Below, piece after piece: positions 1 through 40,139 of a stretch of 40,413 bases of DNA (its first letter is position 1; the number at the start of each line of letters is the position of its first letter). This DNA is from Lachnospiraceae bacterium (GTDB lineage Bacteria > Bacillota > Clostridia > Lachnospirales > Lachnospiraceae). The stretch lies in NCBI GenBank assembly GCA_017617395.1, contig JAFZWG010000045.1, positions 1-40,413 of the forward strand, written 5' to 3'. Position numbers and translations under genes: made by a program. The notes below the pieces were generated by a model. The model did not search any database, was not told the origin of the DNA, and saw nothing but the letters and a program-made list of their open reading frames with translations.

Positions 1-756
1 CTCACCGCCTGTCGTAAGAAGTGTGAGCGTGTCCGAAATCTTCTGGTACAACTGCTCGTTCGTGCACTCGCCGCGGTAGATCTGGTGGAACACCTCACCG
101 TCGCGGATGAACAAAACGCGGGACGCGTGGCTCGCCGCCTTTGTCGAGTGCGTAACCATCAGAATCGTCTGTCCCTGCGAGTTGATGTCGCGGAACACGC
201 GCAGGAGGTCATCGGTCGACTTCGAGTCGAGCGCGCCCGTAGGCTCATCCGCAAGGATCAGCTTCGGGTCCGTGATGAGCGCTCTGGCCACCGCCGTGCG
301 CTGTTTCTGACCGCCGGACACCTCGTACGGGTACTTCGCCAACAGCTCCGCGATGCCGAGCCGCTCGGCGATCGGCAGAAGCTTTCCCTCCAGCTCCGCG
401 GGCTTTGCGCCGTTTAGCACCAGAGGCAGCAAAATGTTGTCACGGATGGAAAATGTATCCAGCAAATTGAACTCCTGGAACACGAACCCGAGGTTCTCGC
501 GGCGGAACGTTGCCATGTCCGCCTCCCGGATCGTCGAGAGCTCCTTGCCCTCCAGCAGAACCTTGCCGGCCGTCGGCCGGTCAAGTGCCGCCAGGATGTT
601 GAGGAGCGTCGTCTTGCCGGAGCCCGACTCGCCCATGATTGCCACATACTCCCCCTTCTCCACCGTGAACGTCACGTTCGAAAGCGCCTGCACCTTGTTT
701 CCCCCGAACCGTGTGGTGTAGACCTTCTGAAGATTGCTTACTTCCAAAATACTCAT
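1..756 (-). CDS. BceA-type ABC transporter ATP-binding protein (C-terminus cut by window edge)
   Basis: ATPase of a MacB/BceA-type exporter, the class that moves or detoxifies cell-wall-active peptides such as bacitracin. I translated 252 residues from the ATG at 756-754, which follows GGAGG by 5 nt; no stop appears before the window edge. Seen: Walker A GESGSGKTT at 42-50, Q-loop FVFQEF at 91-96, signature SGGQ at 147-150, Walker B LILADEP at 166-172, switch His in VTHS. BceA proteins are about 250-260 residues, so only the last few are missing, and the BceB permease should lie just outside the window. The BceS/BceR-like genes at 2223-3901 and a BceR-like site at 961-974 support the subfamily. 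The exact peptide substrate cannot be read from the sequence. Confidence 0.93.
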   Translation of the reverse strand, partial: MSILEVSNLQKVYTTRFGGNKVQALSNVTFTVEKGEYVAIMGESGSGKTTLLNILAALDRPTAGKVLLEGKELSTIREADMATFRRENLGFVFQEFNLLDTFSIRDNILLPLVLNGAKPAELEGKLLPIAERLGIAELLAKYPYEVSGGQKQRTAVARALITDPKLILADEPTGALDSKSTDDLLRVFRDINSQGQTILMVTHSTKAASHASRVLFIRDGEVFHQIYRGECTNEQLYQKISDTLTLLTTGGE

Positions 757-900
757 AACTGCCTCCGTCTTGCGGCGCCTGCCGCGTTTCTCTCTGCCGG
801 GCGATGCCCCGTCCGCGTAACGCTCCCCCGAGTCGGTGCCCGCATTCCCTGCGCTGCATCACCGTACGCGTCCGGGGCTCACTCCCGTGCTTACATCTGC

Positions 901-974
901 ATTATACGACAGGAAAAATCGGGGAAACATCGATTTTGGTTACATTTTCCGCGGCTGATGTGACACTTTTGTAA
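901..974 (-). promoter_or_regulatory. Probable BceR-activated promoter of the ABC transporter
   Basis: A perfect -10 TATAAT lies at 901-906 (minus strand) with no good -35 at the right distance, as is typical of activator-dependent promoters. About 70 bp upstream, 961-974 reads TGACA-N4-TGTAA, which fits the inverted repeat TNACA-N4-TGTAA described for BceR-type regulators. The rest of the 757-1033 gap is a leader of about 140 nt and a weak hairpin. Confidence 0.55.
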
Positions 975-985
975 GGTCACGCAAG

Positions 986-1005
986 GGCGATGGAAATCCA
1001 CCGCC
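986..1005 (-). terminator. Weak hairpin after the deacetylase gene
   Basis: A 9-bp stem with one A-C mismatch and a 2-nt loop lies 28 bp after the stop of the deacetylase gene. There is no T-run on either side, so it is at most a partial terminator or an mRNA 3'-end stabiliser. Confidence 0.3.
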
Positions 1006-1033
1006 CCCCGAAATATCTTTGTATTGCTCTTGC

Positions 1034-2179
1034 TTACGGCACTTCGTCAAGGAGCGCGAACCGGTAGCCGGCCTCCTCCAAAAGCGTCAGTACCGCGTCC
1101 AGCTCGTCCGCGTTCTGCTGGCAATCGTTGTGGATCAGCGCCACGGCGCCGCTGTGATGATACGTCTTAAAATGGTTCGTCACATACCCGGGCGCCGGCG
1201 GGTTCTTCTTGTCGTAATCGCCGTACGCGATGCTCCAGAACACAGTCCGGTAGCCTGCGTCCCTGATCAGCGTCAAAAGCCGCACCGTGTACGAGCCCGA
1301 CGGCGTGCGGAAGAACGGGTCCATCTCGTAGCCCGTCACCTCATAGAAATACTTCGCACAGTCGAAGATCTCCGCGATGATATCCTCCACCGCCATCACG
1401 CGGAGGTCCGAGTGCGACACCGTGTGGTTGCACACCGCGTGGCCCTCCTCCTTCATGCGGATTGCGAAGTCGGTGCATTTTTCGAGGTACATCTTCGTGA
1501 CGAAGAAGCTCGCCTTCGCATTGTGCTTTTGGAGCGTGTCCAGAATCTTATCCGTGAGATTCGAAGGATATCCGCAGTCGAACGTCAGATAGATCACCTT
1601 GTCCTCATCGGTCGCCGACTTGTCCACGTAAAATCCGCCGTAATCCATGATCGGGATGAACTCGCGCGTGCCGGACTGTGTGTGGTCCGTTCGCCGGATG
1701 AACTGCCACGTCCGCTCGGATGTGTTGTCGAGCGAGTTGTAATAGTCCACCTTCGAAAGAAGCTCCTCCCGCTTCTCCTCGAGCCGCTCCAGCGGTGTCT
1801 GCGTGGGCGTCGGAGTCGGTGTCGGCGAGTTTGTGGGCGTCGGTGAATTCGTCGGCGTCGGCGTGTTCGAAGGCGTCGGCGTCACGGCCGCGGTCAGCTT
1901 TGCGGCCTCCTCTCCGTCCAGGTCCTCAAACCGGCTCTCATCGTACAATGTGATCCCCACCAATTGAAACTTCGAGCCCTTCTGCCGTTTCATTTCAAAG
2001 GTGTCGCTGCCAAGCTCCATAACCTCGCACAGCTTGTTGTACTGCGTGTACTTGTATAAAAGCGCCTTGTACTCAACGGTTCCCCCGTCCTCCAGCACCT
2101 TTCGCCGCGGCACCAGCAGCACCGCCAAAAGCACCACGACGATCACTGCGATGATCCATCCTTTTCCTGTCTTCTTCAT
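1034..2179 (-). CDS. PdaA-like polysaccharide (peptidoglycan) deacetylase, membrane anchored
   Basis: Family 4 carbohydrate esterase, 381 residues, probably removing N-acetyl groups from peptidoglycan sugars outside the membrane. Seen: one N-terminal membrane anchor (about 8-24), a 25-100 segment starting EDGGTVEYKALLY, a Thr-Pro-Ser-Asn linker at 100-129, then the deacetylase fold. Catalytic motifs are LTFDCGY (Asp201), NHTVSHSDL (metal ligands His252 and His256), FRTPSGS, and a C-terminal LIHND. TFDCGY and FFRTPSGSY are close to the PdaA (muramic delta-lactam) branch rather than generic chitin deacetylases. It follows the kinase gene by 43 bp with no terminator, so it probably belongs to the same transcript and would add a wall-modification arm to an antimicrobial-peptide response. 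A role in spore cortex is the alternative. Confidence 0.85.
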   Translation of the reverse strand: MKKTGKGWIIAVIVVVLLAVLLVPRRKVLEDGGTVEYKALLYKYTQYNKLCEVMELGSDTFEMKRQKGSKFQLVGITLYDESRFEDLDGEEAAKLTAAVTPTPSNTPTPTNSPTPTNSPTPTPTPTQTPLERLEEKREELLSKVDYYNSLDNTSERTWQFIRRTDHTQSGTREFIPIMDYGGFYVDKSATDEDKVIYLTFDCGYPSNLTDKILDTLQKHNAKASFFVTKMYLEKCTDFAIRMKEEGHAVCNHTVSHSDLRVMAVEDIIAEIFDCAKYFYEVTGYEMDPFFRTPSGSYTVRLLTLIRDAGYRTVFWSIAYGDYDKKNPPAPGYVTNHFKTYHHSGAVALIHNDCQQNADELDAVLTLLEEAGYRFALLDEVP

Positions 2180-2222
2180 AATTGCATCCCCCTTTTTTTA
2201 TTGTATCGGCCCCGTTCGCCGA

Positions 2223-3233
2223 TCATTCCGCAACAATCTCTTCCTTCCGCATGTCGATGGTAAATGCGGTCCCCCTGCCGACCTCCGATTCCACCGAGAG
2301 GCCGATGTTAAGCTTGTGCGCGACTCTCTTACAGAGGTAGAGCCCAAGTCCCGTCGCGCGCCCGCCGTCCGTGCCGCCCGCGGACACAAGGCGTCCGTTA
2401 AAGCCTGTGAAGCCCTTCTCAAAGATGCGCGGCACATCCTCCGGCGCGATGCCGATGCCGGTGTCCCGCACGATCACCTTCGCGTCCTCCGTGAGCGTGA
2501 CGGTCACGCCGCCCTCGTAGGTGTATTTGACGGCGTTTGAAAGAAGCTGCTCCAAAAGGAAGGTGAACCATTTGTCGTCCGTGACGACCCTCACCTTGCA
2601 CGGCTCGTAGGAAAATGCAAGCTTCCTCGCGATAAACTGCGGCGCGAACCGCCGTATGGACGCGCGCACCAGCTCGTCGAGGTCGCACTCGCGAACCGCA
2701 AGGTCCGAGGCGTCCGAGCCCAGGCGGATGTAGCCAAGCGCCATATCCACGTAGCTCTCGGTGCGGAACAGCTCGGCCGCAATCGCGCGGCTCTGCTCGG
2801 TGTCCTCCGACTTCACCAGCATCTGCATGACCGCCAGCGGCGTCTTGATCTGGTGAACCCACGTCGTGTAGTAGTCCTTCGCCTCGCGTCGCTCCGTGAA
2901 GCGCTGGTCTTCGAGGTCCTCGATCCGCTTCCACAGCGCCTGCACCAGGTCCGAATAGTCGGTCGCCGCAACGCCGTACTCGTCGATCAGGTCCGTGCGC
3001 TCATACGATGCCGAGCGGATGCTGCGGAGTCTGGCGCGATGCCGGCGATACTCGCGGATGAAATCAAACGTCAGCAGAAACACCCCGACCGCAAAGCACA
3101 GCAATACCGAGTATATAAGCGAATCAAACGGCACATTATGCAGCCAGAAGATCAGCCAGCAGATCAGTACGACGGCGCAGCCCCAGAGGATGGGATACAC
3201 GCGGTCCTTCAAAAATTCAGCGAAAAATTTCAT
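2223..3233 (-). CDS. BceS-type intramembrane-sensing histidine kinase
   Basis: Sensor kinase of 336 residues. The ATG at 3233 overlaps the stop of the response-regulator gene (ATGA), so the longer upstream reading is not needed. Two N-terminal membrane helices (about 14-31 and 38-56) are separated by only a few residues, leaving almost no extracellular sensor. This is the hallmark of BceS-like kinases that sense through their ABC transporter. The H-box is WVHQIKTPL with phospho-acceptor His127, followed by an ATPase domain with an N-box around LLSNAVKYT, DTGIGI and GLGLYL. Expected partner: the regulator encoded just upstream; signal: flux through the Bce-type transporter at 1-756. Confidence 0.93.
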   Translation of the reverse strand: MKFFAEFLKDRVYPILWGCAVVLICWLIFWLHNVPFDSLIYSVLLCFAVGVFLLTFDFIREYRRHRARLRSIRSASYERTDLIDEYGVAATDYSDLVQALWKRIEDLEDQRFTERREAKDYYTTWVHQIKTPLAVMQMLVKSEDTEQSRAIAAELFRTESYVDMALGYIRLGSDASDLAVRECDLDELVRASIRRFAPQFIARKLAFSYEPCKVRVVTDDKWFTFLLEQLLSNAVKYTYEGGVTVTLTEDAKVIVRDTGIGIAPEDVPRIFEKGFTGFNGRLVSAGGTDGGRATGLGLYLCKRVAHKLNIGLSVESEVGRGTAFTIDMRKEEIVAE

Positions 3234-4140: not shown

Positions 4141-4169
4141 CCTTCTTCCTCCAATTGCGCCGCACAGTA

Positions 4170-4185
4170 TAACGGTGCACCGTTA
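4170..4185. promoter_or_regulatory. Operator O2: perfect 16-bp palindrome
   Basis: TAACGGTGCACCGTTA is its own reverse complement. It lies in the leader of the XRE-type gene, 57 bp from the second copy. A TATACT hexamer (minus strand, 4165-4170) abuts it as the -10 box abuts O1, so the pair may be a duplicated promoter-operator unit whose second -35 has decayed. Confidence 0.7.
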
Positions 4186-4222
4186 CAACTTCGCCGATGA
4201 CATTTTCCATGCCATCTGTTCC

Positions 4223-4251: not shown

Positions 4252-4255
4252 GGTG

Positions 4256-6076
4256 TTATGACTTTAGTTTCCCGTACGTAAGCCTCCGCATGCGGTTGAT
4301 CACGGCGTACAGATCGCACACCCGCGGCATCGCCAGGAAGCGCTCACACTCCGGGAAGAAGCCCGAGTAGATGGTGTCGAGACCATTTGCCGCAATCTCG
4401 CGGAAAATCCTCTCCACCTCGTCCTTCAGGTCCACAAACACACCGTTCTGACGGTTCTCCATCAGCCGGATCATGAAGCCGATCGACGTCCGCTGCTCGC
4501 GGCAGAGTATGTTCGCGATGCTCCTGGTGTCGATCTTCTCCGCACCGATCATGATGAAATCGATGTCCGGCACGGCGAGTTTCTCCTGCCATGCCTGCTC
4601 GGGATACGACGTAAAGCCCTCCGTCTTCAGCCTGCGGTTCTGCGTCCACGTCGCCGCCTTCGGGCCGCTGCCCTTCGCGCTGCTTTCGCGGCCGCTTTGC
4701 GCCTGCCCGCCGAGCTCCTTCGCCGTCTCCGTCACGTTGTAGATCACGTACTCCTCCATCATGTAGACCGTGTCCGCGACCGAGAGGTACTCGCCGCTGC
4801 CGCCGATGACCAGGATCGTCGAGACGCCGCACGCTTCGTACAGCTCGTTCACGCGCTCCGTGAACGGCGTGATCGGCTCCCTCCGGATCAGCTCCTTCAT
4901 CAGCCGGTCCCGGATCATGAAGTTCGTCGCGCTCCGGTCCTCATCGATCAGCAAAAGCTTCGAGCCGCAGTCGATGGCTTCCAGAATATTTGCCGCCTGA
5001 GACGTCGAGCCGGACGCATGGTCCGTTGAAAAATCCTCTGTCTCCCCGCCGGGCACCCACGAGATAAACGGCGAGATATCAATGTTCTTGATACACCTTC
5101 CGTCCTCCGCGCCGATCGACATGGCACTTTGGTCCGTCACGCACAGCTCGCGCCCGTCGCCGAGCACATGGTCGTAGATGCCGGCCGCAATCGTGTCAAG
5201 GATCGTTGACTTGCCGGAGTAGCCGCCGCCCGTGATGACGGTGACGCCCCTGCGGATCCCTAAGCCCTTGATGCCGCAGGCCTCAATCTCCTCCTCCGGA
5301 GGCGCCGTAAACGGAATCGCGCCCTCCATCGGCAGTTCGGTCTTCGCCTCTCTGGGCAGGATACTGCCGTTCGCGAGGAACGCACAATACTCACTCGTCC
5401 GAAGCCATGCCCGCAGCTCCCGCTGCTTGTTCGCAAGCTCGATCACATCGCGCACCCGCGAGCGATTGAAGCGCTCCTCAAACAGCGCCACTGCCATCGG
5501 CATGTCGGCCGTCAGCATCTGAATCGCCTTCTTGAGTCTCTTCGCCGGCAGCTGAACCTGGTACCGCATGCTGAGGCACATCTGCGGCTCGCCGACCTCC
5601 TCCGGCCGCCGATGCACGATGATGTTTCCGCCTCCGTTGTCGTAGTCCTTCCGCGGCCTCATCGCAAAATACGCCGTGTTCCGCTCCAGCACTTCCCCGC
5701 CCGGCCGGACCATGAAATAATAGCCCGTCTGTTCCGGCGTCTTGTGCCGGTTGTAAAGCTCTTCGTTCATCTCCTCGAGGTATGGCAGGAACTCCCGGTA
5801 GCAATAGTCCGCCACCGTCGTTTCGTACGTGTCGATTCCCAAGTTTTCCGCGGGGATCTGACACAGGATTGTCGGTCTGTCCAGCGACATTTTGTTTGTG
5901 AGCTCCACGGTAAATGAGCACTCTCCGTACCAGAACGTCGGCTCGCTGACAAATTGCGGCAGCCCGGTCGGATTGCCCGGCGTGCCGGCAGGAATCATGA
6001 CCTCCGCCTCGTACATTTCCCGGTAGTTCACAGTTGCATTGTCCATTTTTAACAGGTATCGTTTTAACCGAATCAC
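4256..6076 (-). CDS. Predicted ATPase of the ABC class (COG3044)
   Basis: 606 residues, cytoplasmic, no membrane segments. The C-terminal half has ABC-ATPase motifs: Walker A GGGYSGKST at 283-291, a signature-like SGSTSQA near 355-361, Walker B LLLIDED at 374-380 followed by RSATNFMIRD, and VIGGSGEYLSVAD further on. This pattern is that of COG3044, soluble ABC ATPases of unknown cellular role found across bacteria and some eukaryotes. The N-terminal 250 residues are less typical. The ATG at 6076 follows AGGGTG; no strong promoter is visible upstream. The gene stands alone between the stress operon and the AT-rich island, so context gives no clear pathway. A nucleic-acid-related role has been suggested for relatives; nothing here tests it. 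Confidence 0.85.
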   Translation of the reverse strand: MIRLKRYLLKMDNATVNYREMYEAEVMIPAGTPGNPTGLPQFVSEPTFWYGECSFTVELTNKMSLDRPTILCQIPAENLGIDTYETTVADYCYREFLPYLEEMNEELYNRHKTPEQTGYYFMVRPGGEVLERNTAYFAMRPRKDYDNGGGNIIVHRRPEEVGEPQMCLSMRYQVQLPAKRLKKAIQMLTADMPMAVALFEERFNRSRVRDVIELANKQRELRAWLRTSEYCAFLANGSILPREAKTELPMEGAIPFTAPPEEEIEACGIKGLGIRRGVTVITGGGYSGKSTILDTIAAGIYDHVLGDGRELCVTDQSAMSIGAEDGRCIKNIDISPFISWVPGGETEDFSTDHASGSTSQAANILEAIDCGSKLLLIDEDRSATNFMIRDRLMKELIRREPITPFTERVNELYEACGVSTILVIGGSGEYLSVADTVYMMEEYVIYNVTETAKELGGQAQSGRESSAKGSGPKAATWTQNRRLKTEGFTSYPEQAWQEKLAVPDIDFIMIGAEKIDTRSIANILCREQRTSIGFMIRLMENRQNGVFVDLKDEVERIFREIAANGLDTIYSGFFPECERFLAMPRVCDLYAVINRMRRLTYGKLKS

Positions 6077-6212
6077 ATTGTCACCCTTTTAACCTTTCAT
6101 GTCTGTTGCTTTGTTGATTAAGGAACGAACAGCGAGGTTGTAAGGTAATGCGGAAAATGATGGGAACTGACGCCAGGTTCCTGAAGTATGCAGGAAGGGC
6201 TTAGTTTTCCCC

Positions 6213-6559: not shown

Positions 6560-7735
6560 TTACAGCTTTGGTTTTTTCGGCATCGCCAGTCTTGCGTGGC
6601 AGTTGGCGCAAATTGTCACCTTTGGAAGGTTCGAATACCCGCAATGCGGGCATTTGCGTTTCACGGTACCGCCGCATCTGGCGCAGATTGCGACCGAAGG
6701 ATCATTCGCGTAGCCGCAGGTGCATTCCTTCTGCTGCATGACAGCCGCGGCCTTACGACGCAGCACATCGTCCCGGGCCTGCTGGGACTCGGATCCGAGA
6801 GGGGCACCGCAGCCGACGCAAACCGCTGTTCCGGCCCGGTTAATGAGCCAACAGGAACGGCATTTGCGAGCTCCCGGCGGCAGGATTTTACTACCGCGAA
6901 GCTTTGAATCCTCGATCTTGCGCTGCTCTTCCTCCTTGGCGATCCGCTCTTCCGCGAGATCCAGAAGTTTTGACCTGCCGTAGTAGGACAGCCGCGGCAT
7001 CGGAGCATCCTTCTGCGGGGCGTGGTATTCGTCCCCGGCCTGTCTTCCCACACGGGGATTGTATCCGCAGGACGGGCAGGTGATCGATGACCACTCCTGT
7101 TCCTGTCCGCAATAAACACAGTAGATGACGGACTCCCGGAGCGTCTTGAAGATGTCGTAATCGGCATCGTCGACTCTGCGGGTCTTCCTCGAAACCGGAA
7201 GCTTCTTGCCGCAGAATTCGCAGTGCGTGGCGTTCCGGTCGTTATCCTTGCTGCAGGAGCGGCAGCGAACCATGCCCTCCGGAACAGGATTTGCCACCGG
7301 CGTGACATTTTCCGGCACGACGTTCACTACCGGCGTCTCGAATGTCTCCGGTTCCTCGGTCAGCTCCTTGTTGGCCTGCTCCCAGAACTCGGGATCGTTC
7401 AGACCGAGGTTCCCGTAGAGGTCATCCTCGCCGGCTTCGCCGAAAAATTCATCCTCCGTCGGCATGCCCTCGATCGGCTTGTCCGAAAGCCCCGGCGCGC
7501 CGGCCCCGCTGTCCGAATACGGGACAAATCCGAGCGGCATTCCGCACATTCTGCACGCGGTGTCCGTCGCTTCATTATCGCTCCAGCAATAGGAGCAGCG
7601 GATCTTGCCCTTCGCAATCGGATCGAGCAGTCCCCTGACCTTCTTGCCGGGCTCCTCCCTCGGCAGAAAATTCCCGCACTGCTCGCAGACAACGGCATAA
7701 TTCGGATTGTCACGACCGCATACGAGACAAATCAT
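6560..7735 (-). CDS. Multi-zinc-ribbon protein (seven ribbons)
   Basis: 391 residues from the ATG at 7735, which follows a GGGGGGAAAG site. An in-frame start 45 codons earlier is rejected because it would include the promoter. Seven Cys-x2-Cys...Cys-x2-Cys-Gly units are spread along the chain: the first uses Cys3, Cys6, Cys17 and Cys20, the sixth is a shorter CTCG variant, and the last is CPHCGYSNLPKVTICANCHA. The linkers are acidic or proline-rich and probably flexible. No signal peptide, membrane segment or enzyme domain is visible. Zinc-ribbon arrays of this kind usually bind nucleic acid or protein partners, or serve as sensor stalks; the function here is unknown. It is monocistronic, with its own promoter. 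Confidence 0.85.
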   Translation of the reverse strand: MICLVCGRDNPNYAVVCEQCGNFLPREEPGKKVRGLLDPIAKGKIRCSYCWSDNEATDTACRMCGMPLGFVPYSDSGAGAPGLSDKPIEGMPTEDEFFGEAGEDDLYGNLGLNDPEFWEQANKELTEEPETFETPVVNVVPENVTPVANPVPEGMVRCRSCSKDNDRNATHCEFCGKKLPVSRKTRRVDDADYDIFKTLRESVIYCVYCGQEQEWSSITCPSCGYNPRVGRQAGDEYHAPQKDAPMPRLSYYGRSKLLDLAEERIAKEEEQRKIEDSKLRGSKILPPGARKCRSCWLINRAGTAVCVGCGAPLGSESQQARDDVLRRKAAAVMQQKECTCGYANDPSVAICARCGGTVKRKCPHCGYSNLPKVTICANCHARLAMPKKPKL

Positions 7736-7865: not shown

Positions 7866-7890
7866 CTCATTTTCCGAAAGATCAGTAGTA

Positions 7891-24955: not shown

Positions 24956-25630
24956 TTACTCCTTCCAGTAATAGCCGGCCTTCATCGCGGTCGCGATGTG
25001 CTCGCCGACTTCCCCCAGTGCCGCGCGCAGCTTTTTGATATGGTTGTCCACGGTCCGCTCATAGCCCTCGTAATCGGCTCCCCACACGAGATCCAGAATC
25101 TGCGTGCGCGAGAGGATCTGATTCCGGTGCTCCACCAGCAGAAGCAACAGATCGTACTCCTTCGGCGAGAGCGTCACCGCGGTTTGCTTCACGAGGACAC
25201 GGCGTCTGGCCGGTTCAATGCTCAACTCCCCGATCCGCGTGATGCCGTTTCGCACGACAAGCCCGCGGTAGCGGTTGATCAGCGCATTGATCTTCGCCAG
25301 GAGAATCTCGTTGGAAAATGGCTTTGTGATATACTCGTCCGCTCCGATCTCGTAGCCCTCCACGATCGTCTCCTCACGATCCAGTGCCGTCAGGAAAATG
25401 ACAGGAACATCGTATCGCTCGCGCAGGAACCGGCACACCGTAAGACCGTCTTTCTTCGGCATCATGATATCCAGAATAACCGCGTCATAGCGATTCCCCA
25501 TAATCGCCCATTCCGCTTCTTCCCCATCGCAAACCGCGTCAACCGTAATCCCCCGTTTCCGAAGAAACGCTGCCGTAATGCTGCGAAGTCCCGGTTCGTC
25601 CTCTGCGAACAACACTCTGTAAGCCATCAT
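24956..25630 (-). CDS. OmpR-family response regulator of the pilus locus
   Basis: 224 residues from the ATG at 25630, preceded by GGAGGGG; the second ATG immediately follows and is also possible. Receiver domain with acidic Glu10-Asp11-Glu12 and phospho-acceptor Asp54 in VILDIMMPKKDG, conserved Lys in ITKPFSNEI, then a winged-helix domain with SPKEYDLLLLL and RTVDNHIKKLRAAL. First gene of the locus, 23 bp before its kinase. It may bind its own leader, where TTTGTA/TACAAA forms a short inverted repeat. Confidence 0.93.
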   Translation of the reverse strand: MMAYRVLFAEDEPGLRSITAAFLRKRGITVDAVCDGEEAEWAIMGNRYDAVILDIMMPKKDGLTVCRFLRERYDVPVIFLTALDREETIVEGYEIGADEYITKPFSNEILLAKINALINRYRGLVVRNGITRIGELSIEPARRRVLVKQTAVTLSPKEYDLLLLLVEHRNQILSRTQILDLVWGADYEGYERTVDNHIKKLRAALGEVGEHIATAMKAGYYWKE

Positions 25631-25703
25631 TTTCCCCTCCTCTGATGCCATCGTAACAGGCGGATGTATCGGTTTTGTATCCGGTTACAAACTTTTTGAA
25701 AAT

Positions 25704-28488: not shown

Positions 28489-28556
28489 GATCGATTTCCT
28501 CCTTTCGTCCCGGATTCGGCCACATTATAAGCGCCTCCCGTCGGAAAATGCAACAC

Positions 28557-30467: not shown

Positions 30468-31691
30468 TTACTTATCCTCTTCCTTGTAGTCGAAACCGGC
30501 GAGGTCGCGGATCTGAGCTGCGCCCCAGAAGGCAGGCTTCTTCTGGTAGTTCTGGTTGTAGAGGAGCGGGCTGTAACCCTTTCTCCAGGACATGCCGTCG
30601 GCAAATCCCCAGAACGTCAGAGCATCCATCTTCAGTGTGCCCGCATCGATGCGCTCGAAAATACCGTTGATCAGGTCGTAGTAGTACTGGCCCTGAGCGG
30701 CGAGGTTCTTTGCGTTGGCAGGCTTCGGAGTCTGGTACTTGCCGAGGCAGACATCGAGCTCCGTCAGCTGGATCTTGAGGCCGAGTTTGCTGAGCTGGTC
30801 AACCGTCTTGAAGTAGTCGGTCAGGCTGTCCTGCGTATAAAGGTGAGCCTGGAAGCCGATACCGTCAATCAGGTATTTGCCGTTCTCATCCACGAGCGTC
30901 TTTACGAACTTCTCGAGGGTGTCGGTCTTGAACTGCTCGTTGTAGTCATTGTAGTACAGGTCGATGCTCTCCGGAGCATACTTGTTTGCATAGTAAAATG
31001 CATACCACAGATAGTCGTCGCCGATGGTTGAGGTCCAGTTGCTCTTGCGGATCGAGCCGTCCTCCATCCACGCCTCGTTGACAACGTCATACGCGTAGAT
31101 CAGGTCGATGTAGCCCTCTTCCTCAAGCTTCGTGAACACCTGCTTGATATAGCTCTCGAGACGCGCAAGCATTACCTCGCGGCCGACAAGCTTCTTCGAC
31201 GTATCGAAATCCTCGTAGAAAATCCAGTTCGGGGTCTGGCTGTACCATACAAGCGTATGGCCGCGAACCGCCATTCCGTTCTCACGCGCCCACTTGAGCA
31301 TGGTGATCATGTTCTGGTTGAATTCTACAACCAGGTCGCCGGTCTCCTTGCTCTTCTGCTCGTTGAAGAGGTAGTCGGGCTTCATATCATTTTCCATCGT
31401 AACGCTGGTGAACTGGGACGTGATGAGCTTGCTGTAAGCCTCGGTTCCGGTCATCACCGTCGTAAGGCACGTTCCGACCTTCAAACCGTGTGCGGCAAAT
31501 ACATCCTTCAGATATACATCCGGCAACGGAGTGGGCGTAGGCGTGGGCGTCTCGGTCGGCACCTCGGTGGGCGTCGGCGTTGCAGCCTCGGTAGGCGTTA
31601 CGCTGGGGGTTGTGTTCTTGTCCTTGCCGCATGCGGCCAGCAGACCGAACATGGATAAAACGATCAGGCACAATACGATTGTCTTCTTCAT
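30468..31691 (-). CDS. GH10 endo-beta-1,4-xylanase, lipoprotein
   Basis: 407 residues from the ATG at 31691 (AAGGAG upstream). Lipoprotein signal with lipobox LLAAC (Cys21), a Thr-Pro-Glu linker (about 27-57), then a GH10 barrel: VRGHTLVWYSQTPNW, acid/base Glu206 in DVVNEAW, nucleophile Glu311 in QLTELDV, FWGFADG near the end. It should be tethered outside the membrane and cut xylan backbones. The esterase-GH43 enzyme at 7891-10806 could process its products inside the cell. No terminator follows, so some read-through into the T-box promoter region is possible. The 31692-31807 gap shows no clear promoter. Confidence 0.95.
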   Translation of the reverse strand: MKKTIVLCLIVLSMFGLLAACGKDKNTTPSVTPTEAATPTPTEVPTETPTPTPTPLPDVYLKDVFAAHGLKVGTCLTTVMTGTEAYSKLITSQFTSVTMENDMKPDYLFNEQKSKETGDLVVEFNQNMITMLKWARENGMAVRGHTLVWYSQTPNWIFYEDFDTSKKLVGREVMLARLESYIKQVFTKLEEEGYIDLIYAYDVVNEAWMEDGSIRKSNWTSTIGDDYLWYAFYYANKYAPESIDLYYNDYNEQFKTDTLEKFVKTLVDENGKYLIDGIGFQAHLYTQDSLTDYFKTVDQLSKLGLKIQLTELDVCLGKYQTPKPANAKNLAAQGQYYYDLINGIFERIDAGTLKMDALTFWGFADGMSWRKGYSPLLYNQNYQKKPAFWGAAQIRDLAGFDYKEEDK

Positions 31692-31807: not shown

Positions 31808-33022
31808 TTATTTTTGCCTGATTTCGATGATCACATACTCGGACTTCGTTCCCGTCTTGTAGTGAATCTCCCAGTCGGAGATGCCCGATGTGACGATAAA
31901 TGTCGTCTCGCCGCGCGTCTCGAGCCCGTACGTGCGGTCGTTGGCGCCCATCAGCCGGCCGATGGGTCCGAGCGGGATCAGCTGGCCCCCGTGCGTATGG
32001 CCGGACAGCACCAGGTCAACCCCTGCCGCAGCCTCCGCCTCGTAGTCGTTCGGCTGGTGGTTGATGTCGATCATGTAGCGGCTCCGGTCCAGTTCCTTGG
32101 TCAGGTCCGCAATGCTTCGGCGCCCTCCGGTGCCGTTGTTGTCGCCATTGTTGGCACTATTGTCTCCGCTGTTGCCGGCGCCGTTTCTGCGGCGCGAGGA
32201 GTCGCTTCGGTCCATTCGGCCGATGACGTAAAATGTGTCCGCGACAAGCTCGACCTCGTCCTCGAGCACATGAACGCCGCTCGCGGTCAGCGCCGCCTCG
32301 AGCTCCTGCGGCGTGTACCCGCGGCTGTTGTTGTATCCCTTATCATGATTTCCGTACGAAAAATACACCCCGTACTTCGGTGTGAGCCCTCCCAAAGCGC
32401 GGCAGGCCGCAAGCATGTCCTCGCGGGTCGTGGAGTCGTCGATGAAATCGCCCGCTACGATGACGATGTCGGGATCGTCCTTCATCGCCTCCGCGAGGTG
32501 CTCCGCAAAGCCGTCCGCGTCAAATGTCGTTCCGACGTGCGAGTCCGCGATCAGCAGAATCCGCAGCTGCCCGCCCGGCAGCTCCTTCGACGTCTCAAGG
32601 CAGTACTCCGTGCGGTCGACGTGAAATGCATTGTACCGCCCGACCGCCAGATAGACCGCGCACACGACAAGGACGATGATGCCCGTAATGTAGGGACGCG
32701 GGGGCGCGGAGGAATCCGGGGCGTCCGACGGGGCGGCGGGTGTTTTCATTTTCCGCTTTTTGAGAATTGAAAAAAGGCCGGTCGCGAGGTCCGCAATCAG
32801 CCAGAATGCCGCCAGATGCAGCAAAATGATAACCATATTGACGAGGTCAAAGATACCGTACACAGCGAGGGCTGCGACCGGCACGGCGCCCAGAAGAATC
32901 CGCAGCGAACGACGGTTGCCCGCGAGACGGCGAACAACCGCAAAACGGCCGAACCGGCTGATCAGATACACAATTCCGACGGCGGTCAGCACCAGCGCGA
33001 CGCCTAAAATCGCAAGCCACAT
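31808..33022 (-). CDS. Membrane-bound metallophosphoesterase, copy 1
   Basis: 404 residues: about four N-terminal membrane helices (to residue 127), then a calcineurin-like phosphoesterase domain with Asp160-x-His162 (ADSHVGTT), GDFIDD (Asp192), GNHD (Asn225, His226), NHQPND and GHTHGGQ, a full two-metal site. The domain probably faces outward. An insertion rich in Asn, Gly and Asp (encoded by about 32118-32193) is absent from the paralogue at 34480-35556. The ATG lies 3 bp after the stop of the secreted-protein gene, so translation is likely coupled. Substrate unknown; relatives act on nucleotides or lipid head groups. Confidence 0.88.
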   Translation of the reverse strand: MWLAILGVALVLTAVGIVYLISRFGRFAVVRRLAGNRRSLRILLGAVPVAALAVYGIFDLVNMVIILLHLAAFWLIADLATGLFSILKKRKMKTPAAPSDAPDSSAPPRPYITGIIVLVVCAVYLAVGRYNAFHVDRTEYCLETSKELPGGQLRILLIADSHVGTTFDADGFAEHLAEAMKDDPDIVIVAGDFIDDSTTREDMLAACRALGGLTPKYGVYFSYGNHDKGYNNSRGYTPQELEAALTASGVHVLEDEVELVADTFYVIGRMDRSDSSRRRNGAGNSGDNSANNGDNNGTGGRRSIADLTKELDRSRYMIDINHQPNDYEAEAAAGVDLVLSGHTHGGQLIPLGPIGRLMGANDRTYGLETRGETTFIVTSGISDWEIHYKTGTKSEYVIIEIRQK

Positions 33023-33025
33023 ACC

Positions 33026-34426
33026 TTACCCTTTCCTGCGCGGGACCTTCTTGCTGCCTATGTTTTTAATCAAATGTTTGATGATCGCAAAGAGGATGAG
33101 CACCACCACGAAACCGCCCATCCAGAGGAACAGGCAGACTCCCAGAGGCTGCACCGGGCACATGCCGCAGAGGCTGCACTCGCTCTTTTCCTCCGAATTT
33201 TTCCCGGAGAGCATCCACGACGGAATCGGCGTCGGCCGGGGCGTCGGCGTGGGCGTGATGTCCCCTTCCTCCGGAACCGGCACGATCATCGTGTTCTCGT
33301 CGACAAGAAGCGTCGTCACTTCGGAAAATGCGGATTCATACTCATTGCCCGCGTACACGATAAAGTACTGGCTTCGGAGCTCCACCTCCGTTCCGTGTCC
33401 GATCTTGTGCTTCGGCTGCTCGACGCCGGAGATGTCCCACTCCGCGTCGCCTGTTGCAACTTCAAGCTCACCGCCGACGAGGTCGACCCACTCGTACTCC
33501 TCGTCCGGGTCCTTGATGCGGCCCTGCGTCACGATCTGCACGTAGCCGCCTGCCTCCGTGACCTTTGCGATCGCGTCCGCAACCGTGTCCGGCACGTTGA
33601 CGCTCAGCACGACAAACGGTCCGTGGCCGTTGACTTTTGCCTTGAATCTCGGGTTGAACACCTGCGGAGCATCGAAGTACTCCGAGAGGTGGTACTCCAC
33701 GTGGTCGGCGTCCTTGCCGTACGCGGACAACGACGACCAGTCGGAAAATACATACGTCGCCTTGGTCTCGCCCTCCTTCTTAAGCGCCACTCCGTAGCGC
33801 ACGCGAACGAACAGCGTATGACTCTCAAAATCAATCTTCACATGCGAGTTGACAACCGTGTACTGCGACGTCTTCAGAACGCTCTTCCAGCCGACGCTGT
33901 ACGCGCCGTTCTTGCCGTCGTTCCATTTTGCGTCGCGCTCGCTTCCGGGGTTGCCCATGTCGCGAAGGATCAGCGCCGTGTCCGTCGCCTCCTTCGTACA
34001 ATTCATCTTGACATACGCCCAGTCGCCGAGCACATATTCATCCGGGTGCGCGGCATCCACGGATGCGCGTCCGGTGTCGTTGTCCCATTTGTCGCTGTAT
34101 TTCCAGTCGGACGGGCTGTCGATCGCCCAGTCGATCTGCGCGAACACGCTGAGTTCGGAGTAGCCGAGCTTCTTGAGCGCCTCCTTGCGCGACTTGTCGT
34201 CCTTCGCAAGCCACTCCGCCATCGACGCGTTCTTCGTGTACGATACCTTGCATGCGCTCGGGTCGCTGCTGCTTCCCTGGAACTCCGCCTTCACCCCGCT
34301 CGGGGCCTCCAGCTCAAAGGGAAGCTCGCCCTCCGCCGCCCGCGCCGTACCGACCGGCGCCGCCAGCACCACAAGCATCACCGCACACATCGCGGCCGCA
34401 ATCCATCTTCCGACAAATCTGTTCAT
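33026..34426 (-). CDS. Secreted, membrane-anchored protein of unknown function
   Basis: 466 residues. Signal peptide 1 to about 31, an extracellular beta-rich region without a family I recognise, a Thr-Pro-Arg linker near the C-terminus (TPTPTPRPTPIPS), a Cys motif CSLCGMCPVQPLGVC just before the membrane helix, and a basic tail ending VPRRKG. The four cysteines beside the membrane could bind metal, form disulphides or be lipidated. GGAGGT lies 9 nt before the ATG. It sits between two paralogous phosphoesterases and is coupled to the first, which suggests a shared envelope task. Confidence 0.8.
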   Translation of the reverse strand: MNRFVGRWIAAAMCAVMLVVLAAPVGTARAAEGELPFELEAPSGVKAEFQGSSSDPSACKVSYTKNASMAEWLAKDDKSRKEALKKLGYSELSVFAQIDWAIDSPSDWKYSDKWDNDTGRASVDAAHPDEYVLGDWAYVKMNCTKEATDTALILRDMGNPGSERDAKWNDGKNGAYSVGWKSVLKTSQYTVVNSHVKIDFESHTLFVRVRYGVALKKEGETKATYVFSDWSSLSAYGKDADHVEYHLSEYFDAPQVFNPRFKAKVNGHGPFVVLSVNVPDTVADAIAKVTEAGGYVQIVTQGRIKDPDEEYEWVDLVGGELEVATGDAEWDISGVEQPKHKIGHGTEVELRSQYFIVYAGNEYESAFSEVTTLLVDENTMIVPVPEEGDITPTPTPRPTPIPSWMLSGKNSEEKSECSLCGMCPVQPLGVCLFLWMGGFVVVLILFAIIKHLIKNIGSKKVPRRKG

Positions 34427-35756: not shown

Positions 35757-35780
35757 CTTCGTCTGCGCCCGTTAATCTGC

Positions 35781-35938
35781 ATCCTTCAGGCGACGGCGGG
35801 CTCGCTTCGCAGCGACATGAACTTATCCGAAAACATACAAAAACTTTCTCGAGCGAGCATTTTCCTGCGAGCGAGAGAAAGTCTTTTGCATGTTTCGGAT
35901 CGTTTTGCCAACGAAGCGAGCCCCGTCGCCTACAGGAT
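35781..35938. repeat. 158-nt imperfect palindrome at the end of thiC
   Basis: Outer stem: ATCCT/AGGAT, GGCGACG/CGTCGCC, GGGCTCGCTTCG/CGAAGCGAGCCC (35798-35809 with 35912-35923). Inner stem: ATCCGAAA...CAAAA and CTTTCTC paired with their complements at 35875-35900. The apex holds CATTTTCC. The right end covers the last thiC codons. Too long and imperfect for a simple terminator; it resembles a MITE or large palindromic unit. Confidence 0.75.
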
Positions 35939-37234
35939 GTCGATATATTCGCCGTTGAGGGCTTTGTTCATGCTGCGGACGGCGCAGAATTTGCCGCACA
36001 TGGAGCAGCTATCCTCGTGCTCGGGCGCGCGGCTGTCGCGGATCGCCTTCGCGGTTTCGGGGTCGATCGCGCACTCCCACTGCTTCTCCCAGTCGAACGT
36101 GCGGCGGGCGTCGGCCATCGCGTCGTCGATGTCGCGGGCGTGCGGGATCTTCTTCGCGATATCGGCTGCGTGAGCGGCGATGCGCGAGGCGATGATGCCC
36201 TGCTTGACATCCTCGACGTTCGGAAGAGCGAGGTGCTCCGCGGGCGTCACGTAGCACAGAAATGCCGCGCCTGCCGAGGCCGCGATCGCGCCGCCGATCG
36301 CCGACGTAATGTGGTCGTACCCCGGTGCGATGTCCGTCACCAGAGGACCCAGCACATAGAACGGCGCGCCGAGGCAGACGGTCTGCTGCAGCTTCATGTT
36401 GGCCTCGATCTGGTCAAGAGGCATATGCCCCGGTCCCTCGATCATGACCTGCACATCCTTCGCCCACGCGCGTTTCGTGAGCTCCCCGAGGCGCACAAGC
36501 TCCTCGATCTGGCACACGTCGCTCGCGTCCGCAAGGCAGCCAGGGCGGCACGCGTCACCCAAAGAGATCGTCACATCGTACTCGCGACAAATGTCGAGAA
36601 TCTCGTCGAAATGCTCGTAGAAAGGATTTTCCTCGCCGGTCATACACATCCACGCGAAGACGAGGGAGCCGCCGCGGGAGACAATGTTCATTTTCCGCTT
36701 ATGCGTGCGGATCTGGTCGATCGTCTTTCGGGTAATTCCGCAGTGCAGCGTCACGAAGTCGACGCCGTCCTCCGCGTGCAGCCGCACGACGTCGATGAAA
36801 TCCTGCGCCGTCAGCGTCGCGAGGTCGCGCTGGTAGTGGATCACGCTGTCGTACACGGGCACGGTGCCGATCATCGCCGGGCACTCGCTCGTGAGCTTGC
36901 GCCGAAACGGCTGCGTATTGCCGTGCGACGAGAGGTCCATGATGGCCTCGGCGCCCATGTTCACGGCCGCCATCACCTTCTCCATCTCGATGTTGTAATC
37001 CTTGCAGTCGCGCGAAACGCCGAGGTTGACGTTGATCTTCGTGCGCAGCATCGAACCCACGCCGTTTACGTCGATGCAGGTGTGCAGCCGGTTCGCGCAG
37101 ATCGCCACCTGCCCGCGCGCCACGAGGTCGCGGATCTCCTCCGCGCTCCGGAATTCCTTCTTCGCAACCGCCTCCATCTCGGGCGTAATAATGCCGCGCT
37201 TCGCGGCGTCCATCTGAGTCGTGTAATTTCTCAT
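35930..37234 (-). CDS. thiC: Phosphomethylpyrimidine synthase ThiC
   Basis: Radical-SAM enzyme converting aminoimidazole ribotide to the HMP phosphate of thiamin. 434 residues, the short bacterial form without the extended N-terminus. Seen: [42 protein letters not shown], and the C-terminal cluster motif CSMCGKFC (Cys410, 413, 417). I read the spacing as C-x2-C-x3-C, one residue shorter than the usual C-x2-C-x4-C. AAGGAGA precedes the ATG. Last gene of the operon, 51 bp after thiED. Confidence 0.97.
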
Positions 37235-37285
37235 TTCTGTCTCCTTGTATTGTCAATTTTTAATTGTTATGCGAAAAATGCAGCC

Positions 37286-38722
37286 TCACTCCGCCGCAAA
37301 TCCTCCGACCGCGTACGCGTGGTTCATCGGTCCGCTTCCGCTGCCCAGATCGAGCATCGCCGCAAGCGCGCCCGTTAAATACCGCTTGGCCCGCGCCACC
37401 GCCTCCGGCAGCGGGTAGCCCTGCGCCAGGAAGGACGCGATCGCCGACGAGAGCGTGCAGCCCGTGCCGTGCGTGTTCGGGTTGTCGATCCGCTCGCCGC
37501 GGAACCACTGCCCCTGCCCGTCCGCGAAGAGGTAGTCGCTCGCGTCCAAAACGCGGTGGCCGCCCTTTAAAAGCACCGCGCAGCCGGCCTCTGCGGCAAT
37601 CTTAGCGGCCGCAACCTCCATCGATGCCTCGTCCGTGATCTTCATGCCCGATAGAACCTCCGCCTCGGGGATGTTCGGCGTCGCCAGGCGCGCCAGCGGA
37701 AGCAGCTCGCTCACAAGCGTTGCGACCGCCTCGGACTGCATCAGCGACGACCCCGACGTCGCCACCATCACAGGGTCGACCACGACGTCGGTCGCTTTGT
37801 ATTCCCTGAGCTTCGCGGCGATCACGCGGATCAGCTCGCTGTTCGCGACCATGCCGATCTTGACCGCGTCCGGCTCGATATCGCGGAAAATGCTGTCCAT
37901 CTGCGCCGCCAGAAACTCCGGCGTGACCGGAAAGATGCTCTCGACGCCGGTTGTATTTTGCGCCGTGAGGGCCGTAATCGCGCTCATCGCGTACACGCCG
38001 TTGGCGGTCATCGTCTTGATGTCTGCCTGAATGCCCGCGCCGCCGCTACTGTCACTCCCCGCGATCGTGAGCGCCGTTCGCATCCCGTACGCCGCGCGCT
38101 CCGAAAGCTTGCGGAGCTCCCGCGCCGCCGCCTCGATGTCGGGCGCTCCGAAGATTGCGCCGACCAGCGCCACGCCGGCCTGACCAAAACCGAGGAGCTT
38201 CGAAAGATTTTCCTTCGTGATGCCGCCGATGGCCACCACCGGCACGTCCACCGCGTGCGTGATCTCGCCGAGCACCGCGTGCGGCAGCACATGCGTGTCC
38301 GTCTTCGTCGCCGTCTCGTACATCGCTCCGACGCCCAGGTAGTCCGCGCCGGCCGAAACCGCCGCCCGTGCCTCCGCGACCGAGTGCGCCGAAGCGCCGA
38401 TGATCAGCCGATTGCCCGCGAGCTCGCGCACCTTCGAAACCGCCATGTCCGACAGCCCGACATGGACGCCGTCCGCGCCGCTTGCAATCGCCACCTCCGC
38501 CGAATCGTTGACGATGAACAACGCTCCGTACCGATGACACAGCTCCGCCAGCTCCTTCGCCTCCGCCAGGAGTTCCTCGCGCGTCGCCGTCTTATCCCGC
38601 AGCTGCAGGCACGTCGCGCCGCCGCGAAGCGCCGCCTCCGCCTGCTCATAAAGCGTCATGCCGTCCGCTCTCGCGCCGCCCGTCACCGCGTACAGTAGAA
38701 AATTCTCCTTCGTACACTTCAT
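37286..38722 (-). CDS. thiED: ThiE-ThiD fusion (thiamin-phosphate synthase / HMP-phosphate kinase)
   Basis: 478 residues. Residues 1 to about 210 are ThiE (QLRDKT, VNDSAEVA, GVHVGLSD, VVAIGG), which joins HMP-PP with thiazole phosphate. Residues from about 214 are ThiD (IAGSDSSGGAGIQADIKT, DPVMVATSG, NTHGTGCTLSSAI), which phosphorylates HMP and HMP-P. The fusion places two successive steps in one chain. GVHVGLSD lacks the Gln often seen in the GVHLGQxD motif. It overlaps thiM by 4 bp (ATGA). Confidence 0.96.
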   Translation of the reverse strand: MKCTKENFLLYAVTGGARADGMTLYEQAEAALRGGATCLQLRDKTATREELLAEAKELAELCHRYGALFIVNDSAEVAIASGADGVHVGLSDMAVSKVRELAGNRLIIGASAHSVAEARAAVSAGADYLGVGAMYETATKTDTHVLPHAVLGEITHAVDVPVVAIGGITKENLSKLLGFGQAGVALVGAIFGAPDIEAAARELRKLSERAAYGMRTALTIAGSDSSGGAGIQADIKTMTANGVYAMSAITALTAQNTTGVESIFPVTPEFLAAQMDSIFRDIEPDAVKIGMVANSELIRVIAAKLREYKATDVVVDPVMVATSGSSLMQSEAVATLVSELLPLARLATPNIPEAEVLSGMKITDEASMEVAAAKIAAEAGCAVLLKGGHRVLDASDYLFADGQGQWFRGERIDNPNTHGTGCTLSSAIASFLAQGYPLPEAVARAKRYLTGALAAMLDLGSGSGPMNHAYAVGGFAAE

Positions 38723-39597
38723 GTTTCGTCCCCCGTTCCTTCGATTTCTTCGATCCTCGCGCGTGCCGCAAGCTCCGCGCCCGTCAACCGGTTAACCGCA
38801 TCCAGAAGGTATCGCCCGTACGTCGCATTGCCGTCCGCGGGCGTCATGCGCTCCGCGGCGATCTCCCCGGCGACGCCCATCGCCGCGACCGCCGCCACGG
38901 TCGCCTCGTACACTTCCTTCGGCGAACTCGCGACAAATCCCGCAATCAGCGACGTCAGCTGGCACCCCGTGCCCGTCACCGTCGCCATCTCCGGCCTTCC
39001 GTTTCGCACGCACGCCGTGCGCGTGCCGTCCGTGACAACGTCGATCTCGCCCGTGACCACGATGACCGCCCCGCATGCGCGCGCGAGGGCGCGCGCTTCT
39101 TTACAAACGAAGCCAACCTCCGCCTCGCTCATGCAATCCGTTGCCGCCGCATCCACGCCGGCCGCCGCTGTGCAGGAGTTCTGCGAGGTGCTTACGTTAG
39201 CCCCGATCATCCCCGCAAGTGTCCGGATTTCGGTCCGGTTTCCGCGGATGACGCTCGGTGTGCCAATCGCTAAAAGCTCCGCCGCCGCGCGTCTTCGAAA
39301 CGCCGAAGCCCCGACACCGACCGGATCGAAGACTGTGGGAATTCCCTTCCGCGTCGCCGCCTCAAGCGCAAGCTTTAACGAGCGAACCGACCGCTCGCTC
39401 GGCGTCCCGAGATTTAACAGCAGCCCGTCGCTCGCGGCCGTAATCTCCGCGACCTCCGCCGGATCGTCCGCCATCATCGGCCTCGCGCCGCACCCGAGCA
39501 AAAGGTTCGCGCAGTCCGTCGCCGTCACATAGTTGGTGATACTGTGAATAAGCGGCCGCACCCTCCGCACCGCTTCCGGATAGATGCTCGCGTTCAT
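38719..39597 (-). CDS. thiM: Hydroxyethylthiazole kinase ThiM
   Basis: 292 residues, ribokinase-like fold. Phosphorylates the thiazole alcohol for salvage. Seen: SITNYVTATDCANLLL, MMADDPAEV, FDPVGVGAS, and catalytic-loop GTGCQLTSLIAGF. Coupled by ATGA overlaps to thiW upstream and thiED downstream. The thiazole made available by ThiW feeds this enzyme. Confidence 0.97.
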   Translation of the reverse strand: MNASIYPEAVRRVRPLIHSITNYVTATDCANLLLGCGARPMMADDPAEVAEITAASDGLLLNLGTPSERSVRSLKLALEAATRKGIPTVFDPVGVGASAFRRRAAAELLAIGTPSVIRGNRTEIRTLAGMIGANVSTSQNSCTAAAGVDAAATDCMSEAEVGFVCKEARALARACGAVIVVTGEIDVVTDGTRTACVRNGRPEMATVTGTGCQLTSLIAGFVASSPKEVYEATVAAVAAMGVAGEIAAERMTPADGNATYGRYLLDAVNRLTGAELAARARIEEIEGTGDET

Positions 39598-40139
39598 GCG
39601 CAGTTCCTCATTTTCCGCGGGTTCTCCTCGGACAATGCATCCTGCATGTGCGTGAGCACCCCGGCTCTCTTAAGGCTTAGTAAAATGCACCCCGCCACCA
39701 GCGCGCCACCCGCTGTCGAGATCAAAAACGGGATGACGTATGCATACCACGCGACCGCGGCCGCGCTCACGCCCATGAAGAGCACTGCGACCGGATACGC
39801 GCACAGGCCGCCGAGCACCGCCGTGCCGAACACCTCGCCCGCGAGGGTCGGGAGCATTTTCCGCGTAAATCGGTACGCAAGGCCGCACAAAAGCGCGCCG
39901 AACATGCTGCCGGGAAATGCCATCAGACTTCCGATCCCCGCCAGATTCCGGATGAGCGACGCCGCGCCGGCCACACCGACGCCGTACCACGGCCCGAGGA
40001 AGACCGCGCAAAGGATGTTGACCAAGTGCTGAACAGGCGCGCATTTGCTGCCGAACACCGGCACCGAGAACAGACTGCCGACCACGGCGACGGCGCACAG
40101 AAGGCCGGCCAGGGTCATTTTCCGCGTGTTGAGTTTCAT
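39594..40139 (-). CDS. thiW: ThiW, thiazole-specific ECF transporter S component
   Basis: 181 residues with about five hydrophobic helices. Conserved KCAPVQHLVN, LGPWYGVGVA, SLIRNLAG and AFPGSMFGALL match the ThiW family, predicted thiazole-uptake S components working with a shared ECF energising module encoded elsewhere. AGGTGA precedes the ATG. First gene after the TPP riboswitch. Confidence 0.93.
   Translation of the reverse strand: MKLNTRKMTLAGLLCAVAVVGSLFSVPVFGSKCAPVQHLVNILCAVFLGPWYGVGVAGAASLIRNLAGIGSLMAFPGSMFGALLCGLAYRFTRKMLPTLAGEVFGTAVLGGLCAYPVAVLFMGVSAAAVAWYAYVIPFLISTAGGALVAGCILLSLKRAGVLTHMQDALSEENPRKMRNCA

Follow-up and report, generated by a model that had tools for sequence, protein, structure and literature searches.

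A genome-wide octamer in a Lachnospiraceae genus is a candidate DNA uptake sequence

In a 40,413-nucleotide stretch of Lachnospiraceae bacterium DNA (GenBank assembly GCA_017617395.1, contig JAFZWG010000045.1; hereafter the window), the octamer GGAAAATG is strongly over-represented, as it is across the draft genome containing the window and in most congeneric genomes. We consider it reasonably probable that GGAAAATG, in full about C-G-[G/A]-[A/C]-A-A-A-T-G-[C/A] as judged from its single-change variants, serves this bacterium as its DNA uptake sequence. Both the causal step, uptake that depends on the motif, and the protein that reads it are what we infer from the patterns described here.

Results

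An over-represented octamer in the window and its genome

The window holds 28 copies of GGAAAATG, compared with a mean of 1.20 and a maximum of 4 in 100 dinucleotide-preserving shuffles, and the word ranks first among all window octamers under a third-order Markov model (28 vs. 1.85, z 19). An earlier note on this DNA had counted about 27 copies where about one was expected at a GC content near 56%. The large excess and the expectation are borne out (GC content 56.7%), the exact count being 28 rather than 27. The extent given there, 448..40133, begins correctly at 448 and ends wrongly, as the last copy stops at 40123. Its tally of neighbors ending in C, T, or A (three, one, and three) was right for C and T, while the form ending in A occurs four times. 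The near variant placed at about seven copies, GAAAAATGC, does occur seven times and fits the recognition profile described below.

The draft genome containing the window (G000; 2.34 Mb, 97 contigs, 85% complete) carries 1313 copies of GGAAAATG (620 + 693 by strand) against 25 (11 + 14) of the same word read backwards, which served as the control throughout the genome counts; the proposal of a genome-wide signal motif is thus supported. The extended form CGGAAAATGM occurs 608 times in G000, compared with 3 for its control, and at most 84 times in each of 244 other genomes sampled across the class, a sample assembled without any congener and without G110 and G126, two genomes from other genera of the family. 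Among the literature hits listed for the bare octamer, judged by title, nothing concerned bacterial genome signals.

Further analyses used a 360 kb sample of G000 (the window and 20 further stretches) and a 200 kb sample of a congener, G010 (10 stretches; octamer ranking on 200-257 kb). GGAAAATG is the top octamer in both by third-order Markov expectation, with 205 vs. 18.1 copies in G000 and 140 vs. 17.4 in G010. The earlier note had named genome-wide counts close to this expectation as one outcome that would speak against a function; on the G000 sample rather than the whole genome, with 18 copies expected, no such outcome was seen.

Enrichment in all reading frames and between genes

Coding DNA in the G000 sample contains 134 copies, compared with 18.0 after within-gene shuffling of synonymous codons, and each of the six frames exceeds the shuffles by 3.6- to 38-fold. 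In G010 the corresponding values are 103 vs. 12.0 copies and 2.5- to 27-fold by frame. Between the genes of G000, 63 copies are found where 4.8 are expected. Enrichment in G000 is about 7-fold in coding and 13-fold in intergenic DNA, and by our own simple gene calls the density per kb is 1.38 between genes and 0.43 within them (0.88 and 0.64 in G010). Because all frames are enriched and copies are denser between genes, codon bias does not explain GGAAAATG. The frame-by-frame shuffles also rule out codon-pair bias, which the earlier note had judged insufficient: six frames and intergenic DNA are enriched. Confinement of the enrichment to one codon pair, the other outcome that the note had named as refuting, was likewise not seen.

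A position-selective recognition profile

We analyzed all 24 single-change variants of GGAAAATG in coding and intergenic DNA of the G000 sample. An excess was found for GAAAAATG (coding 46 vs. 9.3, intergenic 51 vs. 7.1), GGCAAATG (50 vs. 6.5 and 9 vs. 2.5), and GTAAAATG (29 vs. 4.9 and 8 vs. 2.1), with a weaker one for GCAAAATG (22 vs. 7.6 and 11 vs. 4.5), and last-letter variants were in excess in coding DNA only. The 12 variants within AAAT (positions 4-7) gave 0.3 to 1.3 times the expected number in coding DNA and, on tiny counts, no more than 2.3 times between genes. Changes are tolerated at positions 2 and 3 of GGAAAATG and not in the AAAT core. In a motif model fitted to G000 intergenic DNA, position -1 is mostly C (80%), position 2 takes either G or A, and +9 either C or A; the flanks have weak preferences only, for A/T at -7 and -5. 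Since mutational decay alone would hit positions alike, this selective tolerance looks like that of a binding protein.

Spread across the genus and family

Within the genus, 20 of 22 genomes show a 6- to 126-fold excess of GGAAAATG over the reversed word, and G006 (221 vs. 82) and G017 (257 vs. 57) lie at the family background. Among 119 other genera of the family, each represented by one genome, the excess was more than tenfold only in G126 (1616 vs. 82) and G110 (783 vs. 41). Strong enrichment is therefore restricted by lineage among the sampled genomes.

De novo ranking placed GGTCAATG, GGGCAATG, GGCAAATG, and GGCCAATG at the top in G110, and GGGAAATG followed by GGAAAATG in G126. In G110, GGNCAATG occurs 2302 times genome-wide (control 162), and in its sample five dialect words exceed expectation in three frames, on both strands (63 vs. 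12.6, 53 vs. 2.9, and 32 vs. 2.6). Within the genus, counts of GGCAAATG and GGAAAATG are 614 vs. 491 in G012, 622 vs. 672 in G007, and 438 vs. 449 in G004; in G006 and G017, GGCAAATG is at or below control. The dialect words have GG..AATG in common, with the two genera outside the genus known from one genome each. Separate dialects in G006 (GGCAATG) and in G023 and G024 (GGCTATG) were considered and rejected for want of prominence in the de novo ranking, apart from single words, among them GGCTATGA and CGGCTATG, which came third when samples of 99-120 kb were ranked. Among named records, the nearest are metagenome-assembled genomes labeled Lachnospiraceae, RGIG2905 and RUG13295; an 11.3 kb locus of RGIG2905, from goat omasum, contains 10 copies and no control word.

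Strand, spacing, and turnover of copies

The G-rich (leading) strand of the G000 sample carries 131 copies, the opposite strand 74 (p 8e-5). This raw excess is no greater than for composition-matched words, and Chi or another polar motif was rejected on that ground: the leading-strand fraction is 0.639 in G000 and 0.555 in G010, compared with 0.684 and 0.710 for permuted words of the same letters. The strand-skew check about replication suggested in the earlier note, run on the samples of both genomes, thus revealed no polarity beyond base composition.

Copies in G000 are spaced more evenly than random (coefficient of variation 0.85 vs. 0.96, with 10 of 1000 simulations as low), and their counts in 5-kb bins have a variance-to-mean ratio of 0.69. 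Across G000 and G010, 17 pairs less than 60 bases apart are opposed and 4 point in the same direction, compared with about 6.6 and 7.1 under random placement; as many opposed pairs arose in 4 of 1000 random placements for G000 and 33 of 1000 for G010.

At aligned places in other species (alignments of at least 150 columns and at most 97% identity, shorter or closer ones being left out), 33 copies out of 102 have remained intact. Composition-matched words in the same identity bins would give about 26, and an unbinned Fisher test of this excess yields p 0.58. Copy numbers are therefore kept while positions turn over between species. A site-specific regulatory role was rejected, as aligned copies are kept intact hardly more often than control words.

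As a separate observation, the longest motif-free stretch of the two samples, 10.6 kb in G010 (L237:6875-17523), covers what appears from its translations to be a Tad-type pilus locus.

Pilus and competence genes in the genus

Homology searches indicate that the gene set required for uptake is encoded in the genus. PF00437 ATPases occur in all 22 genomes, and 17 have a full PilB-type protein; PilB is cut by contig ends in G000 and G003, and none was seen in G012, G020, and G021. In the loci read, the pilus operon comprises pilB-pilT-pilC, one or two small pilins, pilD, pilM, and further pilus genes, with the Pfam domains T2SSE, T2SSF, N_methyl, Peptidase_A24, and PilM_2. ComEC matches were found in 20 of 22 genomes (none in G020 and G021), although in G015 and G016 the protein is split in two pieces (L167-L170), by a pseudogene or an assembly error. 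DprA matches were likewise found in 20 (none in G015 and G009). Near its comEC, G000 also encodes a ComEA-like HHH_3 protein. In G000 and G014 (L225, L226, L230), we also observed a second PilT-like gene apart from the pilus operon and a separate TadA/CpaF-like ATPase, both named by reading.

A full-length second pilin occurs in 15 of 22 genomes; that of G006 is shortened, and from six draft genomes, including G000, none was recovered. The G006 protein (L222:6379-6618) is without most of the globular part, and motif counts in that genome are near background. Presence or absence of the second pilin did not pin down the receptor, since G017 and G007 both have it and only that of G006 is shortened among those recovered. 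Among 10 first pilins, 2 matched the Pfam family ComP_DUS with scores under its cut-off (E 0.0055 and 0.00038), and the family was not listed for any of 9 second pilins; the two sub-threshold matches may serve as a lead only.

We generated a PilB tree of 19 rows, from 18 genus genomes (G000 partial) and G110, leaving out the second PilB of G011. The genomes with the fewest GGAAAATG per Mb (G006, G015, and G017) group together with support 90/90. A clade of nine (support 97/95) contains the species richest in the motif; eight of its members have 450-648 GGAAAATG per Mb and G007 has 269. Within the motif-poor clade, G006 has the shortened pilin and G015 a split ComEC; G017 shows no lesion. Outside the genus, a PilB-type ATPase was found in 9 of 16 chosen genomes. 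Both strongly marked genomes are among these nine, and the five with mild enrichment are without PilB.

Copies along the window

The window copies and two enriched variants are given in Table 1. By the simple gene calls used above, 21 of the 28 copies lie wholly within genes, 6 are intergenic, the number given in the earlier note, and 1 crosses a gene start. Its statement that copies fall in different reading frames also stands, as the genic copies use five of the six: in the sense direction they encode Glu-Asn (8) or Lys-Met (5), and in antisense Phe-Ser (5), Ile-Phe (2), or His-Phe-Pro (1).

Table 1 Copies of GGAAAATG in the window, with those of two single-change variants enriched in the 360 kb sample, GGCAAATG (5 in the window) and GAAAAATG (10 in the window)
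Word	Position	Strand	Context
GGAAAATG	448..455	+	in gene, antisense Phe-Ser (first copy)
GGAAAATG	943..950	-	intergenic
GGAAAATG	2610..2617	+	antisense Phe-Ser
GGAAAATG	4201..4208	-	intergenic
GGAAAATG	6152..6159	+	intergenic
GGAAAATG	7306..7313	-	sense Glu-Asn
GGAAAATG	7868..7875	-	intergenic
GGAAAATG	10779..10786	-	sense Glu-Asn
GGAAAATG	11371..11378	-	sense Glu-Asn
GGAAAATG	11902..11909	-	sense Glu-Asn
GGAAAATG	15034..15041	-	sense Glu-Asn
GGAAAATG	15815..15822	+	antisense Phe-Ser
GGAAAATG	17944..17951	-	sense Glu-Asn
GGAAAATG	20184..20191	-	sense Glu-Asn
GGAAAATG	24577..24584	+	antisense His-Phe-Pro
GGAAAATG	25313..25320	+	antisense Phe-Ser
GGAAAATG	25393..25400	+	antisense Ile-Phe
GGAAAATG	25628..25635	-	overlaps gene start
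GGAAAATG	28543..28550	+	intergenic
GGAAAATG	31388..31395	-	sense Glu-Asn, GH10 glycosidase gene
GGAAAATG	32747..32754	-	sense Lys-Met
GGAAAATG	33323..33330	+	antisense Phe-Ser
GGAAAATG	35858..35865	-	intergenic
GGAAAATG	36689..36696	-	sense Lys-Met, thiC gene
GGAAAATG	37885..37892	+	antisense Ile-Phe, gene fusing thiamine monophosphate synthase and phosphomethylpyrimidine kinase domains
GGAAAATG	39609..39616	-	sense Lys-Met
GGAAAATG	39855..39862	-	sense Lys-Met
GGAAAATG	40116..40123	-	sense Lys-Met (last copy)
GGCAAATG	4384..4391	-	
GGCAAATG	9667	+	
GGCAAATG	10065	-	
GGCAAATG	26284	+	
GGCAAATG	34984	+	
GAAAAATG	1476..1483	-	
GAAAAATG	3436	-	
GAAAAATG	4022	-	
GAAAAATG	8680	+	
GAAAAATG	10042	+	
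GAAAAATG	17810	+	
GAAAAATG	24909	-	
GAAAAATG	27325	+	
GAAAAATG	34878	-	
GAAAAATG	37273	+	

Two coding regions of the window drew attention for other reasons. Positions 11006-19111 encode a predicted protein of 2,701 amino acids with a hydrophobic segment and charged tail at its end, adjoining genes that, named from their translations only, are sortase-like and signal-peptidase-like. Positions 7891-10806 combine carboxylesterase and GH43 glycosidase domains (Pfam) in one open frame.

Discussion

Most of our measurements match the predictions for a DNA uptake sequence with molecular drive, which would leave scattered, strand-neutral, poorly position-conserved copies, an intergenic excess in the genus, and lineage dialects. 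In the mechanism we propose, a DNA-binding pilin of a retractile type IV pilus would bind motif-bearing double-stranded DNA, the candidates for this role being the pair of small pilins whose genes lie between pilC and pilD. Retraction powered by PilT would pull the DNA to the cell, where the ComEA-like helix-hairpin-helix protein could hold it; ComEC would let one strand through, and DprA with RecA would recombine that strand. Motif-bearing fragments would enter more often, and recombination would slowly spread the motif wherever it is tolerated.

Several observations weigh against an uptake function. In G000 itself, pilB is cut short where its contig ends, recovery of the second pilin failed, and the operon beyond was read in congeners only. 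No scanned pilin exceeded the cut-off of ComP_DUS (PF16732), the best score being 21.7 vs. 27.3 bits. Gene content and motif counts are also imperfectly matched: G017 has intact-looking ComEC, PilB, DprA, and both pilins, yet stays at background; G016, with its ComEC split, still has 807 GGAAAATG vs. 99; and the motif-rich G009 (1578 vs. 34), 95% complete, gave no DprA match. Outside the genus, seven of the nine chosen genomes with PilB lack strong marking. G010 does not share the even spacing (coefficient of variation 1.06 vs. 1.03 for random). Uptake sequences should be depleted in recently acquired mobile DNA; around two TraG genes, 3.3 kb contain no copy where about 2 are expected and 20 kb contain 7 where about 12 are expected, too little DNA to show a clear depletion. 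Finally, the G110 dialect words show no excess between genes (14 vs. 26 at coding density, and 0 vs. 7.3 for the top word). The intergenic excess of G000 is therefore not general to every dialect, which slightly lowers our confidence in an uptake role.

Alternatively, GGAAAATG might be the site of another protein that acts on double-stranded DNA genome-wide and needs many sites across the chromosome, such as a nucleoid or segregation protein or a sequence-specific methylase. We regard this as doubtful, though worth keeping in view. Its dispersed copies, without polarity beyond composition and evenly spaced in G000, would suit such a protein, and the variant tolerance is that of a binding site. 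However, nucleoid, segregation, and methylase motifs are usually palindromic or polar, and GGAAAATG is neither, though some copies pair inverted. Restriction sites are not expected to be over-represented. Fixed structural sites would account less well than drive for a word that occurs more than 1300 times in 2.3 Mb, is weakly conserved in position, and is outranked by other words in a related genus.

Octamer length, genome-wide excess, and lineage differences would also fit a Chi-like site for AddAB-type recombination, but this identity is unlikely. In the same test over 200 kb, using what we take to be the origin and terminus positions of E. coli K-12, polarity was evident for E. coli Chi (36:16, a fraction of 0.69 where permuted words give 0.52; p 0.017), whereas GGAAAATG is not polar beyond composition and falls below it in G010. 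E. coli Chi was enriched 2.5-fold in coding DNA (49 vs. 19.5 in synonymous shuffles) and not clearly between genes (2 vs. 1.2), compared with the roughly 7- and 13-fold enrichment of GGAAAATG. Chi has been described as polarized on the leading strand (PMC8022716). Among the roles listed in the earlier note, uptake thus fits best, whereas a Chi-like or replication-polar chromosome-organizing motif fits badly.

That GGAAAATG is a by-product of codon, codon-pair, or context-dependent mutation bias is hardly credible: genomes of the family generally have a roughly two- to five-fold excess over the reversed word, and the G110 dialect is without intergenic excess, but for the genus this explanation is already contradicted by six frames exceeding shuffles that keep protein and codon usage and by higher density between genes, both in G000 and G010, and by the specific variant profile.

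A wider proposal, towards which we lean only slightly, is that this is a third, independently evolved uptake-sequence system and the first outside Gram-negative families, with GG..AATG dialects in at least three Lachnospiraceae genera read by a Clostridia-type type IV pilin. The literature searched, judged from its listings, showed no report of a defined uptake sequence for Lachnospiraceae, Clostridia, or other Bacillota. For Veillonella, an uptake bias has been reported and candidate words were sought, with none named in the available text (PMC5397411). According to a 2025 paper (PMC12616744), selection of DNA by uptake motifs is known from two families only, Neisseriaceae and Pasteurellaceae. 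If it arose a third time, in Bacillota, this would mean that uptake of self-tagged DNA evolved again, that some uncultured Lachnospiraceae are naturally competent, and that natural transformation is a working, species-restricted route of gene exchange in the gut. Adding the tag would offer a practical handle for engineering intractable gut commensals, and the new pilin and dialect pairs could be used to study co-evolution of motif and receptor.

Comparison with known systems

Like the DNA uptake sequence (DUS) of Neisseriaceae, GGAAAATG is a short, non-palindromic word present in very many copies and among the most over-represented of its genome. Copies lie on both strands and form inverted pairs, and homologues of the type IV pilus, ComEC, and DprA are predicted. 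In both cases lineage dialects surround a fixed core, GG..AATG here and CTG in the neisserial DUS (PMC3630211, as far as its available text goes), and the 1313 copies found here compare with about 1900 DUS in N. meningitidis (PMC3630211). Unlike DUS, the sequence is unrelated, with a GG..AATG frame instead of the CTG core, 8-10 letters instead of 10-12, and a host in Lachnospiraceae (Bacillota). DUS also has a receptor pilin, ComP, whereas no pilin here passes the ComP_DUS cut-off.

The uptake signal sequences (USS) of Pasteurellaceae are spaced more evenly than random, as is GGAAAATG in G000. They are also similar in length, about 9 letters, and in number, hundreds to thousands of copies (PMC5031613), and the Pasteurellaceae receptor is itself only predicted (PMC12616744). 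Unlike USS, the motif has a different sequence and weak flank preferences. Chi and Chi-like sites are over-represented octamers as well, from which GGAAAATG differs in being unpolarized beyond composition and more strongly enriched, including between genes. HIP1 of cyanobacteria is a highly abundant palindromic octamer; GGAAAATG is alike in abundance, but is not its own reverse complement.

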